Shown here: one piece after another, positions 15,976-54,034 of the stretch | How positions within the stretch are numbered: the first letter of the stretch is position 1 | How the letters are laid out: every line of letters starts with the position of its first letter | From: Beroe forskalii | Lineage: Eukaryota > Ctenophora > Nuda > Beroida > Beroidae | Assembly: GCA_011033025.1 (NCBI GenBank) | Contig: WFMF01000212.1 | Coordinates: 186,001 to 250,000 of the forward strand | Length of the DNA stretch: 64,000 nt | Direction of reading: 5' to 3' | Notes under the pieces: generated by a model | Databases searched by the model: none | Told to the model about the DNA's origin: nothing | What the model saw: the letters and a program-made list of their open reading frames with translations, nothing else | Translations under genes and position numbers: made by a program

Positions 15976-16079
15976 TGATTATGATTGCTGCTCGTGAGCA
16001 CCGGCTCTTTTTACTGCATAATGACATATCGTGCAGCCGCGGTGCAATTCATGTTATGTAAACCATCCACGCTGAATCC

Positions 16080-25000: not shown

Positions 25001-28000
25001 GTGGTACGCCCGGGGCACTCCTGTAGTCCCGTGGTACTCCCGTAGGACTCCCGGAGGACTCGGAGTACTCCCGAGGACTCTCGGAGTACTCCTGAGGACT
25101 CTCGGAGTACTCCCGGAGGACTTTCGGAATACTCCCGGAGGACTCTCGGAGTACTCCCGGAGGGCTCACGGAGGACTCCCGGGAGTCTCCCGCATTAATT
25201 CGCTCGTATGACCTGATTTCCACCCAACCATATTATGCACTATGCAGTCTAAATCTTGGCTGTATAATAAGTTATATAAGGTTATAAGTCCCGAAGTTGA
25301 GCTCCCCATGAAGTGAAAATTGAAACCTATTATGAAAATTTGATGTTTCTGTCACAAAAGCACAAAAAGCAACATTGTTACGCCATTAATTAATCAAAAT
25401 TATGAGTACAGTGGCACGATATAGTGAACGAATTGAAATTTCTGAATTTGGCCATTTTCGAAGCCACCGTGCAGCAAAACTATTTCATGAAATCCTAAGA
25501 AAAATAATTCTTATAAATTTGATCCTTTGTCTATGTATAAAACAATTTCCAACACCAGAGATGTATAGCGCCATACTTTGAATCTTTGAGGGTCTATTCT
25601 TCACCCCTTTGTCATATCTGAGTTGACTATGTCGTTAGAAAAGTAGGAAGATACTAAGATAAGTAGCAAACTTGAAATTGATCATTATGTAATGTGTAAC
25701 GATCTCATATTCTCATTATATTTATACTGTATGGATCACATTAGCTCATTAGACGTATTGATTGACATACTACACTATTAAAGCATTGATGGCGTGTCAC
25801 GGGATCAGTCTGGCATTTCTATTCATTGAAGTCTGGGACATGTGTTTTGCCCAAATGGGTAGGTTGACCTAGTTACGTTGCTCATTCAGGTGCAACGTGA
25901 TACAATTTCAATGTCATGAGATATTATCGTCTATTAGGATTATGATGATTACAATTAAGATCAGAAATGTGTAGGTACCTTTTGCAGAACCTTGGTTCGC
26001 TATATATATCGTTGCAAAGTGCAGCTTTTAACTTTATTTCAATAATTGGACCATAACTTTGATTCTGTGTATCGTACGAATGTCAGAAAACGGGGTTGTT
26101 TATGTTTTAAAAGATGAATCTAGTTGAATCATTTTCAACTTCGCGAAATTGCTGAAAACTATCCTCGTGATTTTAGCAAGTCACGTGATATTTTGCCGTT
26201 TTTCGAAAACGGTTCCAAAACGGCAGATGGGAAGCGTTTTTAGAAAACGCCGTTTTTGAAAACGCCGTTTTTATAATTGGAAGCGTTTTGAAAAACGCCG
26301 TTTTGTTGAAAATGGGAACACTGGGAACCGTTTTTGTCCGTTTTTGGTACCGTTTTTGAAAAACGGCACCAAAAACGGCTCCAAAAACGGACCAGGAACA
26401 ACGGCCTTATATAAACTTGCACAGAATTTATAAAGTGATGGCCCCAGCTCCAGATTGAATATAAGTGTACCCCAATGCCACCCACACTGTCCATTATGTG
26501 CTCCCATCCTCCTATAATTCCTGGACATGTTTTCTATCCCCCTCAACCTCCTATCATTTCGTGTCCATGTCTCCACCCCCTATTAATCCAATGTATCTAT
26601 GTCCATGTCCCCACCCCTATTAATCCAATGTATCTATGTCCATGTCCCCACCCCCTATTAATCCAATGTATCTATGTCCATGTCCCCACCCCCCTATTAA
26701 TCCAATGTATCTATGTCCATGTCCCCACCCCTATTAATCCAATGTATCTATGTCCATGTCCCCACCCCCTATTAATCCAATGTATCTATGTCCATGTCCC
26801 CCCCCTATTAATCCAATGTATCTATGTCCATGTCCCCACCCCCTATTAATCCAATGTATCTATGTCCATGTCCCCACCCCTATTAATCCAATGTATCTAT
26901 GTCCATGTCCCCACCCCTATTAATCCAATGTATCTATGTCCATGTCCCCACCCCTATTAATCCAATGTATCTATGTCCATGTCCCCACCCCCTATTAATC
27001 CAATGTATCTATGTCCATGTCCCCCCCCCCTATTAATCCAATGTATCTATGTCCATGTCTCCACCCCTATTAATCCAATGTATCTATGTCCATGTCCCCA
27101 CCCCTATTAATCCAATGTATCTATGTCCATGTCCCCACCCCTATTAATCCAATGTATCTATGTCCATGTCCCCACCCCTATTAATCCAATGTATCTATGT
27201 CCATGTCCCCCCTATTAATCCAATGTATCTATGTCCATGTCCCCACCCCCCTATTAATCCAATGTATCTATGTCCATGTCCCCCCTATTAATCCAATGTA
27301 TCTATGTCCATGTCCCCACCCCTATTAATCCAATGTATCTATGTCCATGTCCCCACCCCTATTAATCCAATGTATCTATGTCCATGTCCCCACCCCTATT
27401 AATCCAATGTATCTATGTCCATGTCCCCACCCCCCTATTAATCCAATGTATCTATGTCCATGTCCCCACCCCTATTAATCCAATGTATCTATGTCCATGT
27501 CCCCACCCCTATTAATCCAATGTATCTATGTCCATGTCCCCCACCCCTATTAATCCAATGTATCTATGTCCATGTCCCCACCCCTATTAATCCAATGTAT
27601 CTATGTCCATGTCCCCACCCCTATTAATCCAATGTATCTATGTCCATGTCCCCCTATTAATCCAATGTATTCATGTCCATGTCTCCACCCCCTATTAATC
27701 CAATGTATCTATGTCCATGTCTCCACCCCCTATTAATCCAATGTATCTATGTCCATGTCCCCACCCCTATTAATACAATGTATCTATGTCCATGTCCCCA
27801 CCCCTATTAATCCAATGTATCTATGTCCATGTCCCCACACCCCTATTAATCCAATGTATCTATGTCCATGTCTCCACCCCCTATTAATCCAATGTATCTA
27901 TGTCCATGTCCCCACCCCTATTAATCCAATGTATCTATGTCCATGTCCCCCCCCCCCACCCCTATTAATCCAATGTATCTATGTCCATGTCCCCACCCCC

Positions 28001-31000
28001 CTATTAATCCAATGTATCTATGTCCATGTCCCCCCCCCCTATTAATCCAATGTATCTATGTCCATGTCCCCACCCCTATTAATACAATGTATCTATGTCC
28101 ATGTCCCCACCCCTATTAATCCAATGTATCTATGTCCATGTCCCCACACCCCTATTAATCCAATGTATCTATGTCCATGTCTCCACCCCCTATTAATCCA
28201 ATGTATCTATGTCCATGTCTCCACCCCTATTAATCCAATGTATCTATATCCATGTCCCCCCCCCCTTATCAACCCATATCCAGGTCTGCTAGAGAAGAGT
28301 CGGGTGTGTGGTGCCCCGGCAGGAGAGAGCAACTTCCACATCTTCCACCTGTTGATGGAACACATCGGGAGTGACGGCAGTGCTTACCCTTACCTCAACA
28401 ACACCAGCCACACCTTCGCGCTCAAAGTCACCCTCAGTGCTATACAGGTACCCTTTGTTTTAAAGTCACCCTCAGTGCTATTCAGGTACCCTTTGTTTTA
28501 AAGTCACCCTCAGTGCTATACAGGTACCCTTTGTTTTAACGTGTCAATGCAGGAGATAATTGTTTGCGAAAATGAATCTGTAATAAATTGTAATATTTTA
28601 ACAACATGGTTTTGACGAATTCCTAATTTGCTGCAAAAAACTGTAATGATCTGTACTTGAAAGGGTTTAGATTAAACCTCACTGCATTTCTGGAGCACAG
28701 CATTGTATTCTTTTGTGTGCACAAAGTTAAGCAATTAGCAGCGCCGTTATTGGCATTACTAATTCTTAAATCTTAAGAATAATTCCCAGTATAATGGAAT
28801 AAGGGATATGTAGGTGGTTCATTGTTAAATTCAATTCCAAGAACTCAGGCAAGCCGAGGTTAAAGATGAATTCAGCATACATAATATAAAGCAGGTCATT
28901 ATATGTATATGACAATGAGATCAGTAGATTTAGATTGTGATCTTTGATCATTGATCATTGATCATTGATCAAGACATTTAATATTCATTCTATAATACCA
29001 GCTTTTTTAAAAAGTTTAAATCAAATACTTGATAATAAAGTTCGAGCCATTCTATCTGATATACAATCTATTTGCCAGCTGTCTCATGTTAAGTAGTAAC
29101 ATTCACGCTGGGAAACAATAGGTAACATTTACCCGCCTTTGAGAGATTAGAATAATAAACATGAACATTATCCATCTTTTGAAGATTCAGCGCTAATCTA
29201 ACAATAACAATAGAATACGTGACCCTACTCCCGTACTATAGAATATCTAACTACACACATCTGTTACACACTCAACGATAATTAGTGTTTTCTAAGTGTT
29301 ATGGATGGACCATCAATTATTCTGCTGAAATTTGGCGGGAAAGGTGGCACACCGGGTAAATTGAACTGATAAAGTTAGTATCGTTTTTTGTTGCTGAAGT
29401 GAACGTCTCAATTCAGTTTTTACTCCATGTTGCTCACTACCTACTTTTTATTATAGCATAGCTTGGCAAAGACCCAAAATACTAAAACTTGATACCTAAC
29501 ATGGCTATTGAGATGCGAAACAATGTCAGACACCTGTTGCCCCAAGAATTTTCAACCTGGCGGCTGGCTTGGCAACATTGAAACTATTGAATGTAAAACC
29601 TGTTTCTTTGTTAGAACTGTCCCCCACATGACAGTTTGGTAGAACTTGGGATTGTTTGTTTGACATGTCCCCAACAGGACAGTTTGGTAGAACTTGGGAT
29701 TATTTGTTAGAACTGTCCCCCACAGGACAGTTTGGTAGAACTTGGGATTGTTTGTTTGACATGTCCCCAACAGGACAGTTTGGTAGAACTTGGGATTATT
29801 TGTTAGAACTGTCCCCCACAGGACAGTTTGGTAGAACTTGGGATTGTTTGTTTGAACTGTCCCCCACAGGACAGTTGGGTAGAACTTGGGATTGATTGTT
29901 TGAACTGTCTCCCCTCAGGACAGTTTGGTAGAACTTGGGATTGTTTGTTAGAACTGTCTCCCACAGGACAGTTTGGTAGAACTTGGGATTGTTTGTTAGA
30001 ACTGTCCCCCACAGGACAGTTTGGTAGAACTTGGGATTGTTTGTTAGAGCTGTCTCCCACAGGACAGTTTGGTAGAACTTGGGATTGTTTGTTAAAACTG
30101 TCTCCCCACAGGACAGTTTGGTAGAACTTGGGATTGTTTGTTTGAACTGTCTACCACAGGACAGTTTGTTAGAACTTGGGATTTTTTGTTAGAGCTGTCT
30201 CCCACAGGACAGTTTGGTAGAACTTGGGATTGTTTGTTTGAACTGTCCCCCGTAGGACAGTTTGGTAGAACTTGGGATTGTTTGTTTGAACTGTCCCCCA
30301 CAGGACAGTTTGGTAGAACTTGGTATTGTCTGTTTGACCTGTCCCCCAGAGGACAGTTTGGTAGAACTTGGGATTGTTTGTTAGAACTGTCTCCCCACAG
30401 GACAGTTTGGTAGAACTTGGGATTGTTTGTTAGAACTGTCTCCTACATGACAGTTTGGTAGAACTTGGGATTGTTTGTTAGAACTGTCCCCCACAGGACA
30501 GTTTGGTAGAACTTGGGATTGTTTGTTTGACCTGTCCCCCACAGGACAGCTTTGGTAGAACTTGGGATTGTTTGTTTGAACTGTCACCCACAGGACAGTT
30601 TGGTAGAACTTGGGATTGTTTGTTAGAACTGTCTCCCACTGTACAGTTTGGTAGAACTTGGGATTGTTTGTTAGAACTGTCCCCCACAGGACAGTTTGGT
30701 AGAACTTGGGATTGTTTGTTAAAACTGTCCCCCACAGGACAGTTTGGTAGAACTTGGGATTGTTTGTTAGAGCTGTCTCCCCACAGGACAGTTTGGTAGA
30801 ACTTGGGATTGTTTGTTAGAACTGTCCCCCACAGGACAGTTTGGTAGAACTTGGGATTGTTTGTTTGAACTGTCTACCACAGGACAGTTTGTTAGAACTT
30901 GGGATTTTTGTTGAACTGTCCCCCACAGGACAGTTTGGTAGAACTTGGGATTGTTTGTTTGAGCTGTCCCCCACATAACAGTTTGGTAGAACTTGGGATT

Positions 31001-34000
31001 GTTTGTTAGAACTGTCTCCCCACAGGACAGTTTGGTAGAACTTGGGATTGTTTGTTAGAACTGTCCCCCACAGGACAGTTTGGTAGAACTTGGGATTGTT
31101 TGTTAGAACTGTCTCCCCACAGGACAGTTTGGTAGAACTTGGGATTGTTTGTTAGAACTGTCTCCCCACAGGACAGTTTGGTAGAACTTGGGATTGTTTG
31201 TTAGAACTGTCCCCCACAGGACAGTTTGGTAGAACTTGGGATTGTTTGTTTGAACCTGTCCCCCACAGGACAGTTTGGTAGAACTTGGGATTGTTTGTTT
31301 GAACTGTCTCCCCCACAGGACAGTTTGGTAGAACTTGGGATTGTTTGTTAGAACTGTCCCCACAGGACAGTTTGGTAGAACTTGGGATTGTTTTGTTAGA
31401 ACTGTCCCCACAGGACAGTTTGGTAGAACTTGGGATTGTTTGTTTGAACTGTCCCCCACAGGACAGTTTGGTAGAACTTGGGATTGTTTGTTTGAACTGT
31501 CCCCCACAGGACAGTTTGGTAGAACTTGGGATTGTTTGTTTGAACTGTCCCTCACAGGACAGTTTGGTAGAACTTGGGATTGTTTGTTAGAACTGTCTCC
31601 CCACAGGACAGTTTGGTAGAACTTGGGATTGTTTGTTAGAACTGTCTCCCACAGGACAGTTTGGTAGAACTTGGGATTGTTTGTTTGAACTGTCCCCCAC
31701 AGGACAGTTTGGTAGAACTTGGGATTGTTTGTTAGAACTGTCCCCCACAGGACAGTTTGGTAGAACTTGGGATTGTTTGTTAGAACTGTCTCCCCACAGG
31801 ACAGTTTGGTAGAACTTGGGATTGTTTGTTAGAACATGGAACTGTCCCCCACAGGACAGTTTGGTAGAACTTGGGATTGTTTGTTAGAACTGTCCCCCAC
31901 AGGACAGTTTGGTAGAACTTGGGATTGTTTGTTAGAACTGTCTCCCACAGGACAGTTTGGTAGAACTTGGGATTGTTTGTTTGAACTGTCCCCCACAGGA
32001 CAGTTTGGTAGAACTTGGGATTGTTTGTTAGAACTGTCCCCCACAGGACAGTTTGGTAGAACTTGGGATTGTTTGTTAGAACTGTCTCCCCACAGGACAG
32101 TTTGGTAGAACTTGGTATTGTTTGTTTAAGCTGTCCCCCACAGGACAGTTTGGTAGAACTTGGGATTGTTTGTTTGAACTGTCCCCCACAGGACAGTTTG
32201 GTAGAACTTGGGATTGTTTGTTAGAACTGTCCCCCACAGGACAGTTTGGTAGAACTTGGGATTGTTTGTTAGAACTGTCTCCCCACAGGACAGTTTGGTA
32301 GAACTTGGTATTGTTTGTTAGAACTGTCCCTCACAGGACAGTTTGGTTGAACTTGGGATTGTTTGTTAGAACTGTCTCCCACAGGACAGTTTGGTAGAAC
32401 TTGGGATTGTTTGTTAGAACTGTCCCCCACAGGACAGTTTGGTAGAACTTGGGATTGTTTGTTTGAACTGTCCCCCACAGGACAGTTTGGTAGAACTTGG
32501 GATTGTTTGTTAGAGCTGTCTCCCCACAGGACAGTTTGGTAGAACTTGGGATTGACGAGTCAGAGAAGGAGCATGTCATTAACATTCTCACTGCCATCCT
32601 CATCCTGGGACAGATCCAGTTCAAGACGGAGGCTGAGGGGGTCCGCATCAACAAACCCGCAGATGGTCAAGGTACGAGGCAGCTTTTGTTATCAAATTGT
32701 CAATTTGCATTCTAAGCCATGATAATGGCATTTTAACCAAGCATCAACACATCTGTATTGCCTAATTATATCTCACGTATTCTCATGCCAGGTGGTATCT
32801 AAGTTGCTGGGAGTCACCAACCAATCCATGACAGATTGTCTGACTAGCACCCCTCACATAAGTGGGAACAGAAGCATCAAGATGACACCTCTCTCTTACG
32901 ATAAGGTATCCTAGAATTCCTCTTCTCGTAGTCTTATCTTACGATAAGGTATCCTAGAATTCCTGATTTCTTAGTCTTATCTTACGATAAGGTATCTGAG
33001 AATCCTGATCTCACTTCTTGATATCTCATCCTCTACTTTTCATTCCACTCAAAATACCGCCTCCCCTCGAAATCTTGAGTCAAAATTAGTCAAAATCCCG
33101 ATCTTTAATTTCATTATTACTTTATTACTAGTCTTTTGACCGTTCCCTCGCAGGCGGTGTCAAAGCGTAACTCTCTGGCCGGATACCTCTACTTACGTCT
33201 TTTTAACGAGGTAAGCTCACTGCCTTATCCAATTAGTAAAACTCACAAAACTCACACTTTCTTCTCAATGAAATCTTTCTTTTGTTCTTTAAAATTCCTT
33301 CGCTTCTCGTTAGTACGGAGATTAACTTGTCCCGAACGCAGGTACTGACCTGTGCCAACAAGAGTCTGATGGGTGGTAACGAGCCAGTGTCAGACGACCT
33401 GTGTCTTTCACTGGACATCGTGGATGGGTACGGGATTAAGTGAGTACAATGATGGGTAGGGGTACGTTCTTCTTCTGTACTGACTTATGCGATGAGTATA
33501 ATTCATTCAAATCATTCAAAATACGCCGTACTTACTCCGTCACAAAGTTATTTCCATAACCATCTAAAATATTAATTCTCGTTTAATAATTGACAACTTG
33601 ATTACTGTAGTCCCGTGTAGTCCTGCAATACCCCATGCTTATTCCAAGTGATAAACATCCCCCCTCCCAGAGGCGGTGACCTGAACAACTTCCCGACTCT
33701 GTGTGTGAACTACATTATACATTATACATTATACATTATACATTATACATTATACATTATACATTATACATTATACATTATACATTATACATTATACATT
33801 ATACATTATACATTATACATTATACATTATACATTATACATTATACAGTATACATTATAAATTATACAGTATACAGTATACAGTATACATTATGCATTAT
33901 ACAGGGGCGGTGATCTGAACAACTTCCCGACTCTGTGTGTGAACTACAGTAACGAGCGTTTACACCAGATGTTCATTGAGCACTGTCTCACTGCTCCCCA

Positions 34001-46000: not shown

Positions 46001-49000
46001 AGAGTTCTCAGTTATTTAGAGTTCTGAGTCATTTAGAGTTCTGTGTTATTCAGAGTTCTCAGTTATTTCGAGTTCTGAGTTATGTAGCGTTCTGAGTTAT
46101 TTAGAGTTCTGATTTATGTAGAGTTCTGAGTTATTGAGAGTTCTGAGTAATTTAGAGTAACATGCTGGACAGAATTTATAACAAAGTAGTGATACAATAC
46201 CAAAGCATTTTATGAAATTCCAATACTTCGACTGGACAATTGGCAGGTTTTGGAGAATCATGCGTGTTACAATGTATAGGGTTTCTCATTACTCACCTCC
46301 TCATCCCTTGCAGATTATGGCACTGAAGCCACCTCAGCGAGAGAACGTGAGGGTGGCGTTAGCGGCTCACGATGCCTTCAGAGGAGAGCTCAGCTCCCAC
46401 CCCTCCCTTGTGGTGAGTTGACAGCCCCCCCCCCTCTCAGCTCCCACCCCTCCCTTGTGGTGAGTTGACAGCCCCCCCACCCCTCTCAGCTCCCACCCCT
46501 CCCTTGTGGTGAGTTGACAGCCCCCCCCTCAGCTCCCACCCCTCCCTTGTGGTGAGTTGACAGCCCCCCTCTCAGCTCCCACCCCTCCCTTGTGATGAGT
46601 TGACAGCCCCCCCCTCTCAGCTCCCACCCTCCCTTGTGGTGAGTTCACAGCCCCCCCCCTCTCAGCTCCCATCCCTCCCTTGTGGTGAGTTCATAGCCCC
46701 CCTCTCAGCTCCCACCCCTCCCTTGTGGTGAGTTGACAGCCCCCCCTCTCAGCTCCCACCCCTCCCTTGTGGTGAGTTGACAGACCCCCCTCTCTCAGCT
46801 CCCACCCCTCCCTCGTGGTGAGTTGACAGCCCCCCCTCTCAGTTCCCACCCCTCCCCTTGTGGTGAGTTGACAGCCCCCCCTCTCAGCTCCCACCCCTCC
46901 CTTGTGGTGAGTTGACAGCCCCCCTCTCAGCTCCCACCCCTCCCTTGTGGTGAGTTGACAGCCACCCCCTCAGCTCCCACCCTCCCTTGTGGTGAGTTGA
47001 TAGCCCCCCCCTCTCAGCTCCCACCCCTCCCTTGTGGTGAGTTGACAGCCCCCCCTCTCTCTCAGCTCCCACCCCTCCCTTGTGGTGAGTTCACAGCCCC
47101 CCCTCTCCCAGCTCCCACCCCTCCCTTGTGTGGTGAGTTGACAGCCCCCTCTCAGCTCCCACCCCTCCCTTGTGATGAGTTGACAGCCCCCCTCTCAGCT
47201 CCCACCCCTCCCTTGTGATGAGTTGACAGCCCCCCCTCAGCTCCCACCCCTCCCTTGTGGTGAGTTCACAGCCCCCCCCCTCTCAGCTCCCACCCCTCCC
47301 TTGTGGTGAGTTGACAGCCCCCCCTCTCAGTTCCCACCCCTCCCTTGTGGTGAGTTGACAGCCCCCTCTCAGCTCCCATCCCTCCCTTGTGGTGAGTTCA
47401 TAGCCCCCTCTCAGCTCCCACCCCTCCCTTGTGGTGAGTTGACAGCCCCCCCCCTCTCAGCTCCCATCCCTCCCTTGTGGTGAGTTGACAGCCCCCCCCC
47501 TCTCAGCTCCCACCCCTCCCTTGTGGTGAGTTGACAGCCCCCCCTCTCAGCTCCCACCCCTCCCTTGTGGTGAGTTGACAGCCCCCCCTCAGCTCCCACC
47601 CCTCCCTTGTGGTGAGTTGACAGCCCCCCCTCTCAGCTCCCACCCCTCCCTTGTGGTGGTGACAGCCCCCCTGACTCCCACCCCTCCCTTGTGATGAGTT
47701 GACAGCCCCCCCCCTCTCAGCTCCCACCCCTCCCTTGTGATGAGTTGACAGCCCCCCTCAGCTCCCACCGCTCCCTTGTGGTGAGTTCACAGCCCCCCCT
47801 CTCAGCTCCCACCCCTCCCTTGTGGTGAGTTCACAGCCCCCCCCTCAGCTCCCACCCCTCCCTTGTGGTGAGTTGACAGACCCCCCCTCTCAGCTCCCAC
47901 CCCTCCCTCGTGGTGAGTTGACAGCCCCCCTCTCAGTTCCCACCCCTCCCTTGTGGTGAGTTGACAGCCCCCCTCTCAGCTCCCACCCCTCCCTTGTGGT
48001 GAGTTCACAGCCCCCTCAGCTCCCACCCCTCCCTTGTGGTGAGTTGACAGCCCCCCCTCTCAGCTCCCACCCCTCCCTTGTGGTGAGTTGACAGCCCCCC
48101 CTCTCAGCCCCCTCCCTTGTGGTGAGTTGACAGCCCCCCTCTCAGCTCCCACCCCTCCCTTGTGTTGAGTTCACAGCCCCCCCTCTCTCAGTTCCCACCC
48201 CTCCCTTGTGGTGAGTTGCCCCCCCCCTCTCAGCTCCCACCCCTCCCTTGTGGTGAGTTGACAGCCCCCCCTCTCAGCTCCCACCCCTCCCTTGTGGTGA
48301 GTTGACAGCCCCCCTCTCAGCTCCCACCCCTCCCTTGTGGTGAGTTCACAGCCCCCCCCTCTCAGCTCCCACCCTCCCTTGTGGTGAGCTGACAGCCCCC
48401 CCTTCAGTTCCCACCCCTCCCTTGTGGTGAGTTCATAGCCCCCTCTCAGCTCCCACCTCCCTTGTGGTGAGTTGACAGCCCCCCCTCTCAGCTCCCATCC
48501 CTCCCTTGTGGTGAGTTGACAGCCCCCCCCTCCCCAGCCCCCCCCAGCTCCCACCCCTCCCTTGTGGTGAGTTGACAGCCCCCCTCTCAGCTCCCACCCC
48601 TCCCTTGTGGTGAGTTGACAGCCCCCCTCTCTCAGCTCCCACCCCTCCCTTGTGGTGAGTTGACAGCCCCCCTCTCAGCTCCCACCCTCCCTTGTGGTGA
48701 GTTGACAGCCCCCTCTCAGCTCCCACCCCTCCCTTGTGGTGAGTTGACAGCCCCCTCAGCTCCCACCCCTCCCTTGTGGTGAGTTGACAGCCCCCCCTCT
48801 CAGCTCCCACCCCTCCCTTGTGGTGAGTTGACAGCCCCCCCCTCTCAGCTCCCACCCCTCCCTTGTGGTGAGTTGACAGCCCCCCCTTCTCAGCTCCACC
48901 CCTCCCTTGTGGTGAGTTGACAGCCCCCCCCCTCTCAGCTCCCACCCCTCCCTTGTGATGAGTTGACAGCCCCCCTCAGCTCCCACCCCTCCCTTGTGAT

Positions 49001-52000
49001 GAGTTGACAGCCCCCCTCTCAGCTCCCACCCCTCCCTTGTGATGAGTTGACAGCCCCCCGCCCCACCCCTCCCTTGTGGTGAGTTCACAGCCCCCCTCTC
49101 AGCTCCCACCCCTCCCTTGTGATGAGTTGACAGCCCCCCTCTCAGCTCCCACCCCTCCCTTGTGGTGAGTTCACAGCCCCCCCCCTCAGCTCCCACCCCT
49201 CCCTTGTGGTGAGTTGACAGACCCCCCTCTCTCAGCTCCCACCCCTCCCTCGTGGTGAGTTGACAGCCCCCCCCCCCTCTCAGTTCCCACCCCTCCCTTG
49301 TGGTGAGTTGACAGCCCCCCCCTCTCAGCTCCCACCCCTCCCTTGTGGTGAGTTCACAGCCCCCCTCAGCTCCCCACCCCTCCCTTGTGGTGAGTTGACA
49401 GACCCCCTCTCTCTCAGCTCCCACCCCTCCCTCGTGGTGAGTTGACAGCCCCCCCTCTCAGTTCCCACCCTCCTTGTGGTGAGTTGACAGCCCCCCCCTC
49501 TCAGCTCCCACCCCTCCCTTGTGGTGAGTTCACAGCCCCCCCTCAGCTCCCACCCCTCCCTTGTGGTGAGTTGACAGCCCCCCTCTCAGCTCCCACCCCT
49601 CCCTTGTGGTGAGTTCACAGCCCCCCTCAGCTCCCACCCCTCCCTTGTGGTGAGTTGACAGCCCCCCTCAGCTCCCACCCTCCCTTGTGGTGAGTTGACA
49701 GCCCCCCTCAGCTCCCACCCTCCCTTGTGGTGAGTTCATAGCCCCCCTCTCAGCTCCCACCCCTCCCTTGTGGTGAGTTGACAGCCCCCCCTCTCAGCTC
49801 CCACCCCTCCCTTGTGGTGGTGACAGCCCCCCTCTCAGCTCCCACCCCTCCCTTGTGGTGAGTTGACAGCCCCCTCTCAGCTCCCACCCCTCCCTTGTGT
49901 TGAGTTCACAGCCCCCCTCTCAGTTCCCACCCCTCCCTTGTGGTGAGTTGACACCCCCCTCTCAGCTCCCACCCCTCCCTTGTGGTGGTTGACAGCCCCC
50001 CCCCTCTCAGCTCCCACCCCTCCCTTGCAGCCCCCCTCTCAGCTCCCACCCCTCCCCTTGTGGTGAGTTCACAGCCCCCCTCAGCTCCCACCCTCCCTTG
50101 TGGTGAGCTGACGCCCCCCCCTTCAGTTCCCACCCCTCCCTTGTGGTGAGTTCTGGCCCCCTCTCAGCCCCACCCTCCCTTGTGGTGAGTTGACAGCCCC
50201 CCTCTCAGCTCCCATCCCTCCCTTGTGGTGAGTTGACAGCCCCCCTCTCAGCTCCCACCCTCCCTTGTGGTGAGTTGACAGCCCCCCTCTCAGCTCCCAC
50301 CCCTCCCTTGTGGTGAGTTGACAGCCCCCCTCAGCTCCCACCCCTCCCTTGTGGTGAGTTGACAGCCCCCCCTCTCTCAGCTCCCACCCCTCCCTTGTGG
50401 TGAGTTGACAGCCCCCCTCTCAGCTCCCACCCCTCCCTTGTGGTGAGTTCACAGCCCCCCCCTCTCAGCTCCCACCCCTCCCTTGTGGTGAGTTCACAGC
50501 CCCCCTCAGCTCCCACCCCTCCCTTGTGGTGAGTTCACAGCCCCCCTCTCAGCTCCCACCCCTCCCTTGTGGTGAGTTGACAGCCCCCCCTCTCAGCTCC
50601 CACCCCTCCCTTGTGGTGAGTTGACAGCCCCCCTCTCAGCTCCCACCCCTCCCTTGTGGTGAGTTGACAGCCCCCCTCTCAGCTCCCACCCCTCCCTTGT
50701 GGTGAGTTGACAGCCCCCCTCTCAGCTCCCACCCCTCCCTTGTGGTGAGTTGACAGCCCCCCTCTCAGCTCCCACCCCTCCCTTGTGGTGAGTTCACAAA
50801 CCCCCTCTCAGCTCCCACCCCTCCCTTGTGGTGAGTTGACGGCCCCCCTCCCTCTCAGCTCCCACCCCTCCCTTGTGGTGAGTTGACAGCCCCCTCAGCT
50901 CCCACCCCTCCCTTGTGGTGAGTTGACAGCCCCCCCTCTCAGCTCCCACCCCTCCCTTGTGGTGAGTCCACACCCCCCTTCAATGAAATGTGACAGATCA
51001 CGGGTGCTCTCGATAGGTGGGGTTGAGCAATGGCATTATTTTGGATTTGAATAATCGATAATCGCGTAATTTTGTGCGTGGGGGGCGGGTCAACAGAAGT
51101 TTATTGAACCCCTTACTCAATTTTTGCTTCCTCAATTACTGTCGCAGATGCTGAAGCACTTTGTTCCTGGAATTTTCGTGAAGTCTAAGGTTTGCGTTCA
51201 TTTTCTTAGGATTTATGTCCTAATGAGGAGATCATCTAATATTCCGTTACTGTCTCGGGCCTAAACTATGACTGAAATTCTGAATTTGATTCGTCGCGGG
51301 TTAACAGTTACATCTTTAATAATTTAAACCACGATTATTCTAATACACTATAGACAGTTATTTAGCTGAAGTGTTTACTGCACCCTCCACGATGTTACAG
51401 CTGAGATCTATGGACACCGGTCTAGTCTCAAAAGTCGCATAAATTAAGGTCTGGTTATTTAACGATTCTCTAGGAAACAGGGCGGTTGAATGTGACACAA
51501 TCACCATGGCTAACCTTGTTGATTGGATGCCGTCAAAGCACCTAATTCTCACACAAACCCCCTTCAATAATCCCACTCACTCTGTGACTATACTCGTTAG
51601 ACCCCTCTCAGGACACCGCTCTGTTCACGATACCCGGTCAGTGATCCCATTCAGGTTTAATAAAGCTGGGTTAATATTGTCACTCAGTGATCATATGTAC
51701 GCTGGTTATGGATCGTGCTGGTTTTATTCAAAGATATATTTCATGATAATAGTGGTTTAAGAATGTGCGGTTCAAGGGACTGCAAACCTAATATATTGCC
51801 GAGTTTGAAGGCGATATCATGAAACTCAATGGTAAAAAGACGAAGTAAGACTGTCAATACTTTTTGTGCCTCTTCCTTCTCGACAAACTTGAGCACTTAT
51901 AGTTCCAGACGAGGTTACAATATCAGCTTGTTCCGAATTAAAAAGCTCTCAATTTAAAGATGAGGCTCAAATTATCAAAAAAATCTGCCACATCTATAAT

Positions 52001-54034
52001 TCTAGAACTGTTATTTGTGCACATGGATCGGTCGATAAAAACGCGTGAAAAGGCTGCAATTTCGACAGAAATTCTATGAAAATTAAATTGCGGAGGCTGT
52101 AATATGCGCGTCTTTATCAATGCCTTCATCAATCCAATAATGAGCACACATACGGTTAGCTGCCACATCAATTCAAACAGTCGATAACGACGGTCAATTT
52201 AATTTCCGAGGTCACGAACGAGGCTCTTAGTCCCAGACATGACTATTATCAGCTTGTTCTCTCAATTTAAAGATGCTGTCACTTTTTATAGCTGCCACAT
52301 CTATTACAATCAATAACAATAATAACAATCAATGTAACAATATTTCAAAGGTCGAGCACGAGCCAAAGTAGCGTAAGTTCAGTGACGTAATTATCAAGAT
52401 TTACAGTATTAACTTTAAGTACTTTGAATCGGAGTATTTGATGAATATCAAGTAATTGAGCCAGCTATTAGTATTATCATCAGTCCTCACTTTCTCAACA
52501 CGTGTTTCAGAGCACAGGGAAGCCGCTGGCCCTAGAGAAGCTGCGTCTCAGGAAGAACTACATCGAGTCTAACCACTTTGACGCTACTCAGCTGCTGTCT
52601 GCAGCCCACGGACAGGAGGTCTACTTTGCAGGCCCCATCAACAGACTCAACAGGAAACATGTCGTGGAGAGGTAAGTGGTTGGTGGTTGGTTAGAGGACC
52701 AAGAGTCCAAAAGTTCCACTGATTATTTTCACCTAAATTGTTGCTACTCAGATCTCATATTTTGAAAATATCTTCACTCTTGTAATATCATTCATATGAG
52801 CCCTAAACTCACCTCTTCCGTAGGAATAACGTTGTTCTGACCGACAAAGCTCTGATATTCCTGACCAGCAAGTTCGAGCTGTACCCCCAGAAAACTATGT
52901 TCCTACAGAACTGCAGATCTGTCAGCCTGAGCAACCACGTGGATACCATGTGTGTAGTGCACCAAGCAGAGGTAGGCGTTACCAGGTGGATACCATGTGT
53001 GTGGTGCACCAAGCAGAGGTAGGCGTTACCATGGTAGCTGAGTGGTAGTGTGGTAGCCTTGGTAACCACTTACCATGGTTACCAAGTGAAACTGTGGTAA
53101 CCGTTGTTGCTAATTACCAACTAGAACATGTTATGGTTGATGATGATTAGCTAGGTTACCATGGTTACCATGACAACCCATACCCTGCAGGCTGGTAAGG
53201 ACATGGTAATAGACCTTGGTGTGACTGGTATCTACCACACCCTCCCTGACTATGTAGCTAGGTTACCATGGTTACCATGACAACCCATACCCTGCAGGCT
53301 GGTAAGGACATGGTAATAGACCTGGGTGTGACTGGTATCTACCACACCCTCCCTGACTATGTAGCTAGGTTACCATGGTAACCATGACAACCCATACCCT
53401 GCAGGCTGCCGGCTGGTAAGGACATGGTAATAGACCTTGGTGTGACTGGTATCTACCACACCCTCTCGACTATGTAGCTAGGTTACCATGGTTACCTTGA
53501 CAACCAATACCCTGCAGGCTGCCGGCTGGTAAGGACATGGTAATAGACCTTGGTGTGACTGGTATCTACCACACCCTCCCTGACTATGTAGCTAGGTTAC
53601 CATGGTTACCATGACAACCCATACCCTGCAGGCTGGTAAGGACATGGTAATAGACCTTGGTGTGACTGGTATCTACCACACTCTTCCTGAGTTCGTGGCT
53701 CGGCTCTACTTAGCCTGTAAAAACATGGGTAATAGGATCCAAGTCAACGTCTACCTCGAACGGATACGATATAACAACTCCCGGAAAGCTAATGTGTTCG
53801 ACGAACTGAGTTTCAGGTGGGTGCGGTGCTCCTTTGCAAAGTTATCAACGAATTTTTCATTGCATTTACTCAGGATTCTCTTTGAGTTCGTATGGTAGTA
53901 TTTTCTTAACTCGTAACTTTTCATTTTTCAGTGCAAAGAAGGACAAGCACAGCAAGTTAAAGCCGGGTACTCCAATCTGTCAGTTGAAGAACAAGGTTGT
54001 AATTTACCACGGGGGACGCGACTTCCTCCACTAG
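22007..54034 (+). CDS. Divergent short-tailed class I-like unconventional myosin, 23 exons
   Basis: The joined exons encode about 1,009 residues, the usual length for a short-tailed myosin I. In order: an N-terminal segment; motor start FYTYIGDLLIYMPPF; P-loop GSSGSGKT at about 139-146; LLEKSRV; SNFHIFHLL; LGIDESEKEHVINILTAILI; VNYSNERLHQMFIEHCL; GLDWDPIRIPDNRG; HYIGEVSYDA; FVSFVRCIKPN; an IQ-like neck (IQLCWKRRYINRR); and a TH1-type membrane-binding tail (INRLNRKHVVERNNVVLTDK). Myosin I links membranes to actin. Switch I and switch II are not conserved, and about 26 residues between P-loop and switch I are missing, so motor activity is doubtful. All joins are in phase except exon 6 to 7 (one nucleotide out). 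Tandem repeats sit on 12 of its splice borders. Confidence 0.9.
22224..22609 (+). CDS. Myosin exon 2 (N-terminal motor and P-loop)
   Basis: Acceptor TTTAATTTCAG/GGGT, donor TATTTGG/GTGC (weak). Encodes ESIVDILRRRYLSNTFYTYI and continues to LGSSGSGKTINTKQFLSYL. The P-loop keeps GxxGxGKT, but the usual myosin Glu and Ala are Ser. Confidence 0.9.
23048..23094 (+). CDS. Myosin exon 3
   Basis: Acceptor ATTTCAG/GTTTT, donor AAATAT/GTAAGA. Encodes FGSAQTADSIYASKY, which occupies the AFGNAKT..NNSSRFG (switch I) position. The consensus Asn and Ser-Ser-Arg-Phe-Gly-Lys are mostly replaced. Confidence 0.75.
23226..23289 (+). CDS. Myosin exon 4
   Basis: Acceptor CCTACAG/ACTAGT, donor AAACAT/GTGAGT. Encodes TSQLQLKFNYFGDIISCQLK, the strand pair that precedes LLEKSRV in all myosins. 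It joins exon 5 through a split Cys codon in phase. Confidence 0.8.
24262..24577 (+). repeat. Two-copy direct repeat of about 157 bp
   Basis: TTGGACAAAGGGRTGATATT through GGAATACCTCAGGCTGA occurs twice in tandem (24,262-24,417 and 24,418-24,577) with few differences. It lies directly before the foldback element. Confidence 0.8.
24588..25213. mobile_element. Foldback element made of inverted CTCCGGGAGTA units
   Basis: Ends GGTCATACAAGCGAATTA and TAATTCGCTCGTATGACC are inverted repeats. The interior is a satellite of short units such as GTCCTCCGGGAGTACTCCGA, whose orientation switches at about 24,955, so almost the whole 626 bp can fold into one long hairpin. The frames on both strands are repeat translations. 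Confidence 0.8.
26560..28262 (+). repeat. 37-bp minisatellite abutting the 3' splice site of exon 5, about 45 copies
   Basis: The unit runs CTATTAATCCAATGTATC, TATGTCCATGT, then a C-run of variable length with one A. The array stops about 20 nt before exon 5. The last stretch, TTATCAACCCATATCCAGGT, looks like a diverged unit in which CCATGT became the acceptor CCAG/GT. TATTAAT fits a branch-point consensus. Single-frame ORFs here (CIYVHVPTP repeats) are artefacts. Confidence 0.9.
28284..28447 (+). CDS. Myosin exon 5
   Basis: Acceptor CATATCCAG/GTCTG, donor TATACAG/GTACCC. Encodes LLEKSRVCGAPAGESNFHIF and on to FALKVTLSAIQ. It matches the LLEKSRV and NFHIFY signature of myosin motors. Confidence 0.92.
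28422..28538 (+). repeat. Triplicated 5' splice site of exon 5 (38-bp unit)
   Basis: TCACCCTCAGTGCTATACAG, then GTACCCTTTGTTTTAAAG occurs three times, with donors at 28,448, 28,486 and 28,524. The first copy is the true exon end, judged by reading frame. Confidence 0.9.
28541..29611. other. Intron 5, AT-rich, nothing recognised
   Basis: No exon or named repeat seen apart from a short TTGATCA run near 28,945-28,970. Confidence 0.4.
29612..32553 (+). repeat. 48-bp minisatellite carrying the 3' splice site and start of exon 6, about 60 copies
   Basis: The unit is CCCCCACAGGACAGTTTGG, TAGAACTTGGGATT, GTTTGTTAGAACTGT. The last copy runs into exon 6, where GACAGTTTGG..GGGATT is coding (DSLVELGI). 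So each unit repeats an acceptor CACAG/GA plus the first 24 nt of the exon. Units are 47-49 bp. The main variants are TTAG or TTTG, and CCCCC or CTCCCC. Frames on both strands are artefacts. Confidence 0.95.
32530..32671 (+). CDS. Myosin exon 6
   Basis: Acceptor CCCCACAG/GACAG, donor GTCAAG/GTACGA. Encodes DSLVELGIDESEKEHVINIL and ends INKPADGQ. It matches the LG..EE..I..ILAAILHLGNI segment of myosins. Ends in phase 1, but exon 7 reads in phase 0. Confidence 0.9.
32792..32905 (+). CDS. Myosin exon 7
   Basis: Acceptor CATGCCAG/GTGGT, donor GATAAG/GTATCC. Encodes VVSKLLGVTNQSMTDCLTST and on to MTPLSYDK. The frame needs GTG as a full codon, so the join to exon 6 has one nucleotide too many with canonical sites. 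Confidence 0.85.
32894..33010 (+). repeat. Triplicated 5' splice site of exon 7 (43-bp unit)
   Basis: TCTTACGATAAG/GTATCC recurs with donors at 32,906, 32,949 and 32,992, separated by AGAATTCCT and TAGTCTTATC. Confidence 0.9.
33154..33210 (+). CDS. Myosin exon 8
   Basis: Acceptor CCTCGCAG/GCGG, donor AACGAG/GTAAGC. Encodes AVSKRNSLAGYLYLRLFNE, matching the A..RDALAK.LY.RLF segment of myosins. Confidence 0.9.
33342..33439 (+). CDS. Myosin exon 9 (switch II region)
   Basis: Acceptor GAACGCAG/GTACT, donor ATTAA/GTGAGT. Encodes VLTCANKSLMGGNEPVSDDL, then LCLSLDIVDGYGIK. The canonical LDI.GFE motif is changed to LDIVDGYG, losing the switch II Glu. Confidence 0.88.
33671..33712 (+). pseudogene. 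Duplicate of the first 42 nt of exon 10 with its own acceptor
   Basis: CCCCTCCCAG is followed by AGGCGGTGACCTGAACAAC and on to GTGAACTAC, nearly identical to the start of exon 10 at 33,905. It also joins in frame to exon 9 but runs into the ATTATAC array, so it would only work as an alternative acceptor. Confidence 0.85.
33713..33904 (+). repeat. ATTATAC heptamer array, about 27 copies
   Basis: A nearly pure (ATTATAC)n lies between the duplicated exon head and true exon 10. Its last unit, ATTATACAG, supplies the acceptor AG of exon 10. Confidence 0.95.
33905..34042 (+). CDS. Myosin exon 10
   Basis: Acceptor ATTATACAG/GGGCGG, donor CATCAG/GTTAGC. Encodes GGDLNNFPTLCVNYSNERLH and on to LYLQEGLDWDPIR. 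It matches the N.FEQFCINY.NE.LQQ.F and GI.W..I blocks of myosins. Confidence 0.92.
34024..34069 (+). repeat. Duplicated 5' splice site of exon 10 (27-bp unit)
   Basis: ACTGGGACCCCATCAG/GTT occurs at donors 34,043 and 34,070. The second copy keeps an intact exon end and donor. Confidence 0.85.
34191..34254 (+). CDS. Myosin exon 11
   Basis: Acceptor ATCCTGCAG/GATACC, donor ATAGAC/GTGAGT. Encodes IPDNRGTVMLFTDLQPACLI, the F.DN...I.LIE....GIL segment. Confidence 0.88.
34343..34835 (-). mobile_element. LINE 3' end, inverted copy
   Basis: Reverse-complement match to the 3' part of the LINE at 42,136-43,346, including GAGGGCGTAATTGTGCAGCA, CTGCACGTGCCCCACTCAT and the ATTT/AAAT tail repeat. It is untranslated 3' sequence only, in myosin intron 11. 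Confidence 0.85.
34886..34988. mobile_element. 103-bp hairpin MITE
   Basis: TATTAGTAATCCGCCGGGC and GCCCGGCGGATTACTAATA are perfect inverted repeats of about 28 bp, with TATAC and GTATA outermost. Confidence 0.8.
35001..35235 (+). repeat. Triplicated 3' splice site and head of exon 12
   Basis: CTCTCAG/TGTATTGAGGACGAG and the following GTGCAGTAAGCC occur with exon-like starts at 35,013, 35,107 and 35,210. C-rich CCCCTACCCCTCACC spacers separate them. Only the third copy continues into the full exon. Confidence 0.9.
35210..35350 (+). CDS. Myosin exon 12
   Basis: Acceptor TGCTATCAG/TGTATT, donor GGAGAG/GTATGT. Encodes CIEDECSKPAETTNFMADEA and on to FTIRHYIGE. It matches the LDEEC......D..F and F.I.HYAG.V blocks. 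Confidence 0.92.
35349..35402 (+). repeat. Duplicated 5' splice site of exon 12 (28-bp unit)
   Basis: AGGTATGTCAGACTCACTAA recurs 28 bp later, so two GTATGT donors lie in tandem (35,351 and 35,379). Confidence 0.8.
36024..36101 (-). repeat. Dispersed CRE-bearing short element, copy I (reverse)
   Basis: On the minus strand, GATGACGTCATTATCAGG and then GTGAGTTGATGACGT. Outer sequences GGTCTCTC and ATGAGAC are imperfectly inverted. Lies in myosin intron 12. Confidence 0.6.
36636..36774 (+). CDS. Myosin exon 13
   Basis: Acceptor GTGAGAG/GTATCA (pyrimidine tract weak), donor ATGAAGG/GTGAGT. Encodes VSYDATNFHKMSVTGLSKDT, then LPLIQRMFPD, matching V.Y....F..KN.D.L..D and PL...LF. Confidence 0.85.
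36991..37240 (+). mobile_element. tRNA-derived SINE
   Basis: The head has box A (TAGCGCAGTGGTTAATGC) and box B (GGTTCGATTTCC) about 35 nt apart. It is followed by an unrelated body (TTAGCAGCCACACAG) and a tail of CTTAGTTCCTTCCTTAG repeats. Lies in myosin intron 13. Confidence 0.65.
37683..37838 (+). CDS. Myosin exon 14 (actin-binding / SH region)
   Basis: Acceptor TATCTCCAG/GTAAG, donor GACCAAG/GTAAAC. Encodes LLKDLKNKFVSFVRCIKPN, the hallmark FVRCIKPN of myosin motors. Confidence 0.95.
37839..39234. other. Myosin intron 14
   Basis: Holds a run of 18 C at about 37,897-37,914, a partial CRE-bearing element near 37,957-37,985, and a degenerate copy at 39,041-39,105. An open frame at 38,652-38,945 contains a CGCG-rich core and is not recognised as a protein. 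Confidence 0.4.
39041..39105 (+). repeat. Dispersed CRE-bearing short element, degenerate copy G
   Basis: GTGACGTTATTACTTTATTC and then GCGATTCAATGACATCA keep the spacing of the family with several changes. Confidence 0.4.
39235..39396 (+). CDS. Myosin exon 15
   Basis: Acceptor TTTCAG/TTGCCA, donor CTGTG/GTATGT. Encodes VETSLIKQRGFAFSSDLVGF, then VQRYKC, matching ET..IR..GY..R..F..F..RY in the converter region. Confidence 0.9.
39595..39836 (+). CDS. Myosin exon 16 (converter end and IQ neck)
   Basis: Acceptor CTCCCCAG/GCAAT, donor GTCAA/GTAAGT. Encodes DLYFVGFTCIFIKDSATVLY (the G.TK.FL.......LE position) and an IQ-like IVTKIQLCWKRRYINRR that would bind calmodulin or a light chain. Confidence 0.92.
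40133..40752 (-). CDS. F-box gene terminal exon, copy 1 (downstream duplicate)
   Basis: Acceptor ATCCATTTCAG/AGCTATGG. Encodes ELWAAKCFTDFNISIPPL and a full-length open frame to the stop at 40,133. It may be a mutually exclusive alternative last exon or an unused copy. No polyadenylation signal was clear after either copy. Confidence 0.6.
40133..44388 (-). CDS. Nested F-box protein gene, antisense in the myosin intron
   Basis: Exon 1 (44,007-44,388) joins in frame to a terminal exon that exists in two copies (41,354-41,970 and 40,133-40,752). The junction rebuilds a complete F-box: LCHPTELLLNILQLCSAASL, then ALSQTCTQLRYLANLP joined to ELWAAKC. That follows the LP.E.L..I......L..L...C..LR.L......LW pattern. 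F-box proteins recruit substrates to SCF ubiquitin ligases through SKP1. The predicted product is about 333 residues, with a Ser/Thr/Asn-rich N-terminus and a Cys-rich C-terminal half I do not recognise, which would be the substrate-binding part. No internal stops are present. Confidence 0.75.
41354..41970 (-). CDS. F-box gene terminal exon, copy 2 (nearest to exon 1)
   Basis: Acceptor ATCCATTTCAG/AACTATGG. Encodes ELWAAKCYTDFNISIP, a variable Ser/Asn-rich stretch, then SFYHPREIYTRLCRVIG and a Cys-rich end with the stop at 41,354. The exon and its downstream twin differ by many substitutions and small in-frame changes but both stay open, which suggests selection on both or a recent duplication. 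Confidence 0.75.
42136..43346 (+). mobile_element. 5'-truncated LINE (reverse-transcriptase C-terminus, 3' UTR, AAATA tail)
   Basis: Translation gives NKASQKIGLLRRNCSFNRNT, then FLAIIRSQFEHCSQIWRPVH and AMQKRAVKWVFSE. That is the post-domain-7 region of jockey/CR1-type non-LTR reverse transcriptases. After a frameshift near 42,560 the C-terminus FYRTHLLWNEVPLNIRSEN is visible. It ends in AAATAAATAAATAAA. Comparing with duplication copy 1 shows insertion right after CCTCAG. It is broken and non-functional. Confidence 0.88.
43391..43930. mobile_element. 540-bp TIR element (AAAGGGATGGT ends)
   Basis: TTTAAAGGGATGGT at the left and ACCATCCCTTTAAA at the right. Duplication copy 1 lacks the element at the matching site (ATTATATATTAAATCTC). 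The target duplication may be TTAA, but the terminal bases are ambiguous. No transposase frame. Confidence 0.75.
44007..44388 (-). CDS. F-box gene exon 1
   Basis: ATG at 44,388, donor TTACCAG/GTACGT. Encodes a low-complexity Asn/Pro/Ser-rich start and then the first two helices of the F-box (about residues 89-127). Ends in phase 1, as required by exon 2. Confidence 0.75.
44389..45854. other. 5' side of the F-box gene and rest of myosin intron 16
   Basis: No exon seen. Two CACGTG boxes (at 44,640 and 44,679) and CCAATG lie 250-300 bp upstream of the F-box start codon and could belong to its promoter. A run of nine C occurs near 45,810. Confidence 0.4.
45855..45947 (+). CDS. Myosin exon 17 (neck)
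   Basis: Acceptor CTTTGCAAG/AAGATC (imperfect), donor CTGCAAG/GTATTA. Encodes KIRLPKMTGVFSSTINMYLE, then RIYLCWWARCK, probably the second neck segment with a degenerate IQ motif. It joins both neighbours in phase 0. Confidence 0.75.
45948..46160 (+). repeat. 17-bp array starting at the 5' splice site of exon 17, about 12 copies
   Basis: GAGTTATTTAGAGTTCT units begin within the first bases of the intron (GTATTATTTAGAGTTATTT). Later units diverge by single substitutions. Confidence 0.9.
46314..46412 (+). CDS. Myosin exon 18 (start of TH1 tail)
   Basis: Acceptor CCCTTGCAG/ATTATG, donor CTTGTG/GTGAGT. Encodes IMALKPPQRENVRVALAAHD, then AFRGELSSHPSLV, matching the LR.K..A...F.GKK..Y segment that opens the myosin I tail. 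Confidence 0.88.
46389..50985 (+). repeat. About 44-bp minisatellite carrying the exon 18 end and 5' splice site, about 100 copies
   Basis: The first unit is the true exon end. Unit: CTCAGCTCCCACCCCTCCC, TTGTG/GTGAGTTGACAG, then C5-C9 and TCT. Nearly every unit keeps GTGAGT. Variants are GATGAG, TTCACAG for TTGACAG, and lost or gained C. CCCTCTCAG in each unit also looks like an acceptor, giving potential 19-nt exons. The plus strand is C-rich and the minus strand G-rich. All ORFs here (ELTAPPLSQLPPLPCG or WELRGGLSTHHKGG types) are artefacts. Confidence 0.95.
51148..51189 (+). CDS. Myosin exon 19
   Basis: Acceptor CTGTCGCAG/ATGCTG, donor TCTAAG/GTTTGC. A 14-codon exon, MLKHFVPGIFVKSK, in phase with both neighbours. 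The small size and weak donor lower confidence. Confidence 0.7.
52018..52155. mobile_element. MITE-like element of the TTGATAAAGACG family
   Basis: GATCGGTCGATAAAAACGCG at the left is mirrored by CGCGTCTTTATCAATGCC at the right. GTGCACATG and GAGCACACAT lie further out. Lies in intron 19. Confidence 0.5.
52511..52671 (+). CDS. Myosin exon 20 (TH1 tail)
   Basis: Acceptor GTGTTTCAG/AGCACA, donor GAGAG/GTAAGT. Encodes LEKLRLRKNYIESNHFDATQ, then EVYFAGPINRLNRKHVVER, the V.FA..I.K.NRK.....R segment of TH1. Confidence 0.9.
52824..52971 (+). CDS. Myosin exon 21 (TH1 tail)
   Basis: Acceptor CTTCCGTAG/GAATAA, donor GCAGAG/GTAGGC. Encodes NNVVLTDKALIFLTSKFELY and on to VSLSNHVDTMCVVHQAE. It matches the lipid-binding beta-barrel part of TH1 (LLLTDK.IY). 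Confidence 0.9.
52937..53030 (+). repeat. Duplicated 5' splice site of exon 21 (47-bp unit)
   Basis: GTGGATACCATGTGTGTAGT, GCACCAAGCAGAG/GTAGGCGTTACCA occurs twice, with donors at 52,972 and 53,019. Confidence 0.92.
53150..53700 (+). repeat. Five copies of the 3' splice site and head of exon 22 (107-114 bp unit)
   Basis: CAACCCATACCCTGCAG/GCT followed by GGTAAGGACATGGTAATAGA and on to CACACCCTCCCTGA begins at 53,191, 53,298, 53,412, 53,525 and 53,632. Copies 3 and 4 carry an extra GCTGCCG. Copies 1-4 continue as GACTATGTAGCTAGGTTACC, clearly related to the coding GAGTTCGTGGCTCGGCTCTA of the true exon. So about 75 nt of coding sequence is repeated each time. Confidence 0.95.
53632..53816 (+). 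CDS. Myosin exon 22 (TH1 tail)
   Basis: Acceptor CCCTGCAG/GCTGG, donor TTTCAG/GTGGGT. Encodes AGKDMVIDLGVTGIYHTLPE, then FVARLYLACKNMGNRIQV and FDELSF. It matches the end of the TH1 domain. The fifth acceptor of the array is the one that leads into full coding sequence. Confidence 0.9.
53932..54034 (+). CDS. Myosin exon 23 (C-terminus)
   Basis: Acceptor ATTTTTCAG/TGCAAA, stop TAG at 54,032-54,034. Encodes a basic end: SAKKDKHSKLKPGTPICQLK, then VVIYHGGRDFLH. No SH3 or Pro-rich region follows, so it is the short-tailed type. Confidence 0.88.

Follow-up and report, generated by a model that had tools for sequence, protein, structure and literature searches.

Why should tandemly repeated DNA collect on the exon-intron borders of a gene, and what becomes of the protein when it does? 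The question is raised by a myosin gene of the ctenophore Beroe forskalii, which lies within a stretch of 64,000 nucleotides. That whole stretch, referred to here as the window, comes from contig C262, which is 291,628 bp long; the assembly totals 216 Mb in 1,134 contigs.

The gene and its exon model

The gene occupies positions 22006-54034 of the plus strand and encodes a divergent myosin of the class I type, with a motor and a TH1 region. Pfam recognizes both Myosin_head (E=2e-108) and Myosin_TH1 (E=1e-14) above the cut-off in the spliced product, so that the head plus TH1 tail by which a class I myosin is recognized is present. The joined exons encode a protein of about 1,000 residues. Its top BLASTP match is a Mnemiopsis leidyi protein (76% identity, with 99% of the query covered), to which the model is 79% identical over the alignment; the remaining 119 of the best 120 of 502 proteins are at most 30% identical.

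The initial annotation described 23 exons and 44 internal borders. These numbers are revised here to 24 exons and 46 internal borders by the addition of exon 2b (22811-22879, plus strand), which is in frame, has GT/AG flanks, and matches the Mnemiopsis segment SVSGGWDLSVTLKTRLAHLFNVLDC. The exon numbers of array-bearing borders nevertheless follow the original numbering, and exon borders were fixed before the comparison with the Mnemiopsis protein. Exon 19 (42 bp) is unsupported by that protein, and its call may be wrong. The reading frame is broken once, close to where exon 6 ends (around 32650-32671); this is probably an assembly error rather than the mark of a real pseudogene. No second copy of the gene was seen in the genome, where the exon-21 region has one match only.

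Other features were observed in and around the window. Near the start of the intron that follows exon 16, a stretch of ~1.2 kb occurs twice in tandem (39836-42100); it holds a minus-strand open reading frame of ~220 codons (40133-40795 and 41354-42013), and the pair is perhaps a nested intronic gene. Outside the myosin gene, a 52-bp array of ~27 copies spans 14622-15991. Further along the contig, a tandem duplication takes in two neighbours, a receptor-like gene and a long open reading frame that resembles a decarboxylase (labels assigned by eye); it is located at ~71.8-77.8 kb and 81.3-91.7 kb, counted from window position 1, and its two copies differ little.

Tandem arrays at the splice borders

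Tandem copies lie at or beside 12 of the 46 internal borders of the myosin gene, i.e., about a quarter of them: the acceptors of exons 5, 6, 10, 12, and 22, and the donors of exons 5, 7, 10, 12, 17, 18, and 21. All twelve sites had been named in the initial annotation, and each was found in the sequence where it had been placed. For 11 of the 46 borders, Tandem Repeats Finder (TRF) reports an array no more than 25 bp away. The twelfth site, the exon-10 donor, comprises two copies spaced 27 bp apart (34027-34072, border 34042); it is missed by TRF.

Two arrays are the largest. The exon-6 acceptor array (29607-32554, border 32530) consists of a 48-bp unit in 61 copies by TRF, or 60 by motif, with 25 exon bases per unit. 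The exon-18 donor array (46389-50978, border 46412) has a 43-bp unit in ~106 copies by TRF, or 93 by motif, with 24 exon bases per unit. Like all arrays described in this section, both are given on the plus strand. The remaining acceptor arrays are shorter. That of exon 5 (26562-28264; 37-bp unit, ~45 copies by TRF and motif) is intronic and stops 20 bp before the exon, which starts at 28284. At exon 10 (33672-33948, border 33905), the acceptor and ~44 bp of the exon head are present twice, with a 7-bp array of 27.6 copies between the two (33711-33903). The exon-12 acceptor array (35001-35235, border 35210) holds three copies of the border at spacings of 94 and 103 bp, and that of exon 22 (53148-53690, border 53632) has five copies of a 107-bp unit that takes in ~60 exon bases.

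Among the donors, exon 5 has three copies of a 38-bp unit made of 24 exon and 14 intron bases (28424-28539, border 28447), and exon 7 has nearly three copies of a 43-bp unit with 12 exon bases (32894-33012, border 32905). Two copies are present at the donors of exon 12 (28-bp unit with 2 exon bases; 35349-35404, border 35350) and exon 21 (47-bp unit with 38 exon bases; 52934-53031, border 52971). The exon-17 donor array (45951-46158, border 45947) comprises ~12 copies of a 17-bp unit; it is intronic and begins 4 bp past the donor.

Thus, the earlier statement that most units mix coding and intron bases is accurate for 10 of the 12 borders, where the unit includes from 2 to ~60 exon bases (at the exon-12 donor, 2 only). 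The arrays at the exon-5 acceptor and the exon-17 donor are purely intronic and simply adjoin the border. The ends of the arrays fall at variable offsets, from 0 to about 60 exon bases.

Within the big arrays, the copies are near-identical, which fits young, homogenized arrays. They are not uniform, however: 26 variants were counted among the 93 motif copies at exon 18, and 30 among the 60 at exon 6. This diversity bears on the suspicion that the assembler invented or multiplied the copies. The copy numbers of such arrays are admittedly difficult to assemble, and the broken frame of exon 6 suggests residual base errors. Nonetheless, so many distinct variants would hardly be expected of an artefact, the diverged two- and three-copy cases appear unlike anything that an assembler would invent, and similar arrays were found on several contigs. 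We therefore give an assembly artefact next to no credence.

Effect on the protein

The neighbouring copy was translated at ten borders, and at nine of them its use would introduce a frameshift or a stop. The exception is the exon-10 donor, at which the next copy would add nine residues in frame. The 12 borders belong to ten junctions. The spliced model aligns gap-free with the Mnemiopsis protein at nine of these (11 of the 12 borders), the exception being the exon 18/19 junction, where exon 19 is itself uncertain. Taken together, the broken frames and the gap-free alignment suggest that splicing probably takes place at the copy next to the exon and that the other copies are intron. The protein is, apparently, left unchanged by the border arrays.

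These results also bear on the idea that selection keeps the arrays, with extra splice sites tuning splicing efficiency or making isoforms. Several features seem to speak for it. The splice words are largely intact: GGTGAGT in 79 of the 93 motif copies at the exon-18 donor, and CAG|GACAG in 54 of the 60 at the exon-6 acceptor. In the exon-6 array, columns derived from the exon are more uniform than those derived from the intron (means of 99.4% and 89.9%), and the exon-10 donor copy would yield a nine-residue variant in frame. Yet nine of the ten translated copies give a stop or a frameshift, and the less uniform columns of the exon-6 array are found mostly near runs of C, which are expected to be subject to slippage or sequencing error. 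Since the variation is largely confined to such runs, intact splice words need no selection to account for them. In our opinion, maintenance by selection is very improbable.

Concentration at borders within the gene

Could the arrays have come to lie on borders by chance? In our simulation, each array was collapsed to one unit, and units of the observed lengths, with 120 bp as the upper limit, were placed randomly over the gene. Only placements confined to an exon or spanning two borders were discarded, so that the simulation represents what tolerance alone would produce. At TRF scores of at least 90, 11 of the 14 arrays have a border no more than 25 bp away, compared with 2.50 expected, and not one of 20,000 runs reached 11. 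A more conservative analytic null also gave an excess at scores of at least 90 (11 of 14 against 3.29, P=6e-6), 60 (11 of 19 against 3.88, P=2e-4), and 40 (11 of 28 against 4.68, P=0.002).

The three high-scoring arrays away from borders (24261, 24604, and 24948) are all inside a transposon-like element at 23661-26411, in the intron before exon 5. This TIR element is 2.75 kb long, has terminal inverted repeats (ends GGCCGTTGTTCCTGGTCCG...) and a TTA target duplication, and carries an inverted-repeat-rich 11-bp array together with a 156-bp tandem pair. When it is left out of the simulation, all 11 of the arrays scoring at least 90 are near a border (2.12 expected), as are 11 of 15 at scores of at least 60 (2.66 expected) and 11 of 21 at scores of at least 40 (3.23 expected; 2 of 20,000 runs). 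The initial annotation had arrays almost absent away from borders. This holds for strong arrays only (11 of 14 near a border at scores of at least 90); at scores of at least 40, 17 of 28 lie elsewhere.

It should be noted that the outcome depends on what is counted. A base-by-base test gave no border enrichment, with a local copy at 6 of the 46 borders as against 34% of deep-intron points, since a small number of arrays take up kilobases of intron sequence. Our first permutation, in which arrays were allowed on exons, yielded a mean of 4.97 arrays near borders for the 11 of 14 observed (1 of 5,000 permutations), while counted by border, 11 were near arrays, fewer than the 15.6 to 17.4 expected. 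This permutation was replaced by the seed-level nulls described above, because it permitted exonic arrays and did not separate coverage from seeding.

The simulation addresses the possibility that duplications are formed evenly and persist at any place where they leave the mRNA intact, in which case this gene would be the noticed extreme of a long list. In its favour, the gene was picked for its dense look, and its figures consequently overstate the general case; moreover, arrays are common in general, with TRF arrays making up 14.8% of 205.6 kb of the contig to which the window belongs. Nevertheless, the null that matches this explanation reaches 11 of 14 in none of the 20,000 runs. Tolerance alone is thus rejected as the cause in the myosin gene, although not firmly for other loci.

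Border arrays at other loci

Other genes of the genome show a similar but weaker pattern. We examined 16 loci, comprising 12 other myosin segments, ELP1, asparaginase, an ab initio predicted Ig-domain gene, and a LEM-3-like gene. Among them, 12 of 37 arrays are near a border, with a null expectation of 5.65 (P=0.006); at scores of at least 90, the figures are 10 of 23 and 4.25 (P=0.004). The initial judgement that the arrays are too concentrated for chance is thus well founded for the myosin gene (11 of 14 against 2.50) and applies with less force to this small sample (12 of 37 against 5.65), in which ELP1 and asparaginase do not count as unbiased, having been examined after arrays were noticed beside their exons.

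The least biased set is that of the 12 other myosin segments, with 48 exon matches and 70 borders kept (26 were dropped). At scores of at least 60, 4 of its 17 arrays lie within 10 bp of a border (null 1.71, P=0.07), 6 within 25 bp (null 2.15, P=0.011), and 8 within 35 bp (null 2.46, P=0.0008), while 2 touch a border (null 1.36). At scores of at least 90, 4 of 10 lie within 25 bp (null 1.71, P=0.067). The excess within 25 bp, found in segments that had not been picked for their arrays, argues against tolerance alone. On the other side, arrays that cross a border show no excess outside the myosin gene (3 of 27 against 3.38 expected in 14 loci), as judged by TRF limits, which overlook some crossing arrays, e.g., that of the ELP1 exon-14 donor. 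On balance, we regard tolerance alone as unlikely to be the full explanation.

Individual cases resemble those of the myosin gene. On the same contig, the asparaginase gene has a donor array of 17 copies of a 20-bp unit with 16 exon bases, in addition to an array on the acceptor side. ELP1, also on this contig, has acceptor arrays before exons 7 and 12 and a donor array after exon 14; the exon-7 array ends 59 bp short of the border and was not counted as near. The ELP1 exon-12 donor bears a two-copy duplication that TRF does not report. In the GIY-YIG exon of the LEM-3-like gene, 1.6-2.1 kb before the window, the acceptor and an exon head of ~60 bp are duplicated around a C-rich array, which is the same architecture as that of myosin exon 10. 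The label of this gene rests on a Pfam match (E=6e-6, 26.8 bits) just below the cut-off of 27. On contig C225, a myosin acceptor is associated with an eight-copy 34-bp unit containing GCTAAC, CAG, and a few exon bases; in our own reading, GCTAAC is branch-point-like. A myosin donor on contig C785 is present in two copies.

In the predicted Ig-domain gene (labelled by eye), ~55-57 kb before the window, a 40-bp array fills nearly a whole intron and leaves 30 bp free on the side of the predicted donor and 23 bp on that of the predicted acceptor.

Strand composition

R-loops favour a G-rich sense strand. For this reason, strand composition bears on the suggestion that the arrays start from R-loops at exon-intron junctions. 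GC skew was calculated for 26 border arrays, i.e., the 12 of the myosin gene and 14 others. The 12 near-border arrays of the 37 do not include two of these 14, namely that of the ELP1 exon-7 acceptor, 59 bp from its border, and that of a C225 acceptor whose splice score is weak. The sense strand is C-rich (skew below -0.1) in 17 of the 26 and G-rich (skew above 0.1) in 7. The proportions are 8 and 3 of 12 in the myosin gene, and 9 and 4 of 14 at the other loci. Six of the seven G-rich arrays are at donors.

A process bound to the junction, be it an R-loop or a paused polymerase, would account for the fact that borders rather than deep introns are affected. The prevalence of C-rich sense strands nevertheless disfavours an R-loop start and leaves that part of the initial annotation unsupported; the variable offsets of the array ends likewise argue against any junction-bound process. 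We consider initiation of this kind highly improbable. The C-rich skew is consistent with slippage in the C-rich tracts of acceptors, but less so at donors, where nearly all of the G-rich arrays are found.

How the arrays may have arisen

Taking these observations together, we think it likely that the border arrays of the myosin gene are mirage-type minisatellites, i.e., of the kind described from amphioxus, that are spliced out, and that the borders have been seeded beyond tolerance by slip-prone splice signals. A short segment of DNA straddling the border, or lying just upstream of it at some acceptors, would be duplicated in tandem. If the copy touching the exon stays in use, the extra copies would turn into intron and the protein would remain the same. 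The arrays could then expand by slippage, unequal exchange, or conversion, and this expansion would be hidden from selection, given that the copies are spliced out. Borders would, in addition, gain more founding duplications than tolerance alone predicts. The cause of this seed bias is the most conjectural step; it may most plausibly be sought in splice signals prone to slippage, such as C-rich polypyrimidine tracts and repeated AG|GT words.

The alternative offered in the initial annotation, that duplication is merely tolerated at borders, probably names the reason why the arrays survive. It leaves their concentration unexplained, however, since tolerance equally allows arrays deep within introns, and the simulation gave no run among 20,000 that matched the gene. 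Survival alone predicts mostly deep-intron arrays, unlike those of the myosin gene, and a start bias at splice signals was added for this reason. It is, in our opinion, the simplest addition to tolerance.

A broader proposition is that a mutational process at splice signals makes the borders of ctenophore genes genuine hot spots of minisatellite birth, so that a large share of the borders in one genome would be undergoing amplification, each at its own stage, and some genes, like the myosin gene, would be crowded with them. We advance it tentatively, as something that may well prove too general.

Relation to amphioxus mirages

The initial annotation drew attention to the mirages of amphioxus, and the precedent is apt, since the descriptions in PMC3087553 and PMC3902484 reveal the same architecture. 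There, tandem repeats located at or spanning exon-intron borders are described for Adh3, the globins BflGb6 and BflGb9, PGBD5, and troponin C; in the globin and Adh3 cases the units measure 10-160 bp, the repeats are unstable in length, and the mRNA is apparently undisturbed (PMC3087553, PMC3902484). As far as those descriptions go, mirages and the myosin arrays share minisatellite-like copies that span the border, at donors or acceptors, and splice signals that are repeated in many of the copies. In the myosin gene, the unit spans the border at 10 of the 12 sites, and the splice signal is retained in 79 of 93 and 54 of 60 copies of the two big arrays. In their structure, the myosin arrays are the amphioxus mirage phenomenon in another phylum.

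The differences are those of host, density, scale, and evidence. The myosin arrays belong to a ctenophore, and amphioxus is a cephalochordate. Twelve borders in one gene are unusually dense for a mirage, and copy numbers of 60 and ~100 contrast with the 3 and 6 described for two BflGb6 haplotypes. Finally, mRNA and length instability are described for the amphioxus genes, whereas the ctenophore case is described from one genome assembly.

A related process is the AGGT duplication model of intron gain, which, as outlined in PMC3443670, likewise involves local tandem duplication that copies splice signals and leaves the mRNA unchanged. In that model, an exonic segment is duplicated to create a new intron, while in the myosin gene existing borders have been copied into existing introns.

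Ordinary intronic minisatellites are abundant in ctenophores as well; the myosin arrays differ from them in containing coding bases and in clustering at borders. Tandem repeats make up 13% of the Hormiphora assembly by TRF, and the repeat passages of that report make no mention of border arrays (PMC8527503). Nor were border arrays in ctenophores reported in the titles or abstract beginnings among the matches listed from the open-access PMC literature.

The present case extends mirages to a phylum far removed from amphioxus, which indicates that they are not an oddity of lancelets. If borders are indeed mutational hot spots, then the birth of minisatellites, the growth of introns, and perhaps the gain of introns would share a starting point, and the Beroe genome would offer many copies of the same experiment. 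The exon-18 donor presents ~100 near-identical 5' splice sites and the exon-6 acceptor ~60 near-identical 3' splice sites; both offer natural tests of how the spliceosome settles on the one that touches the exon.
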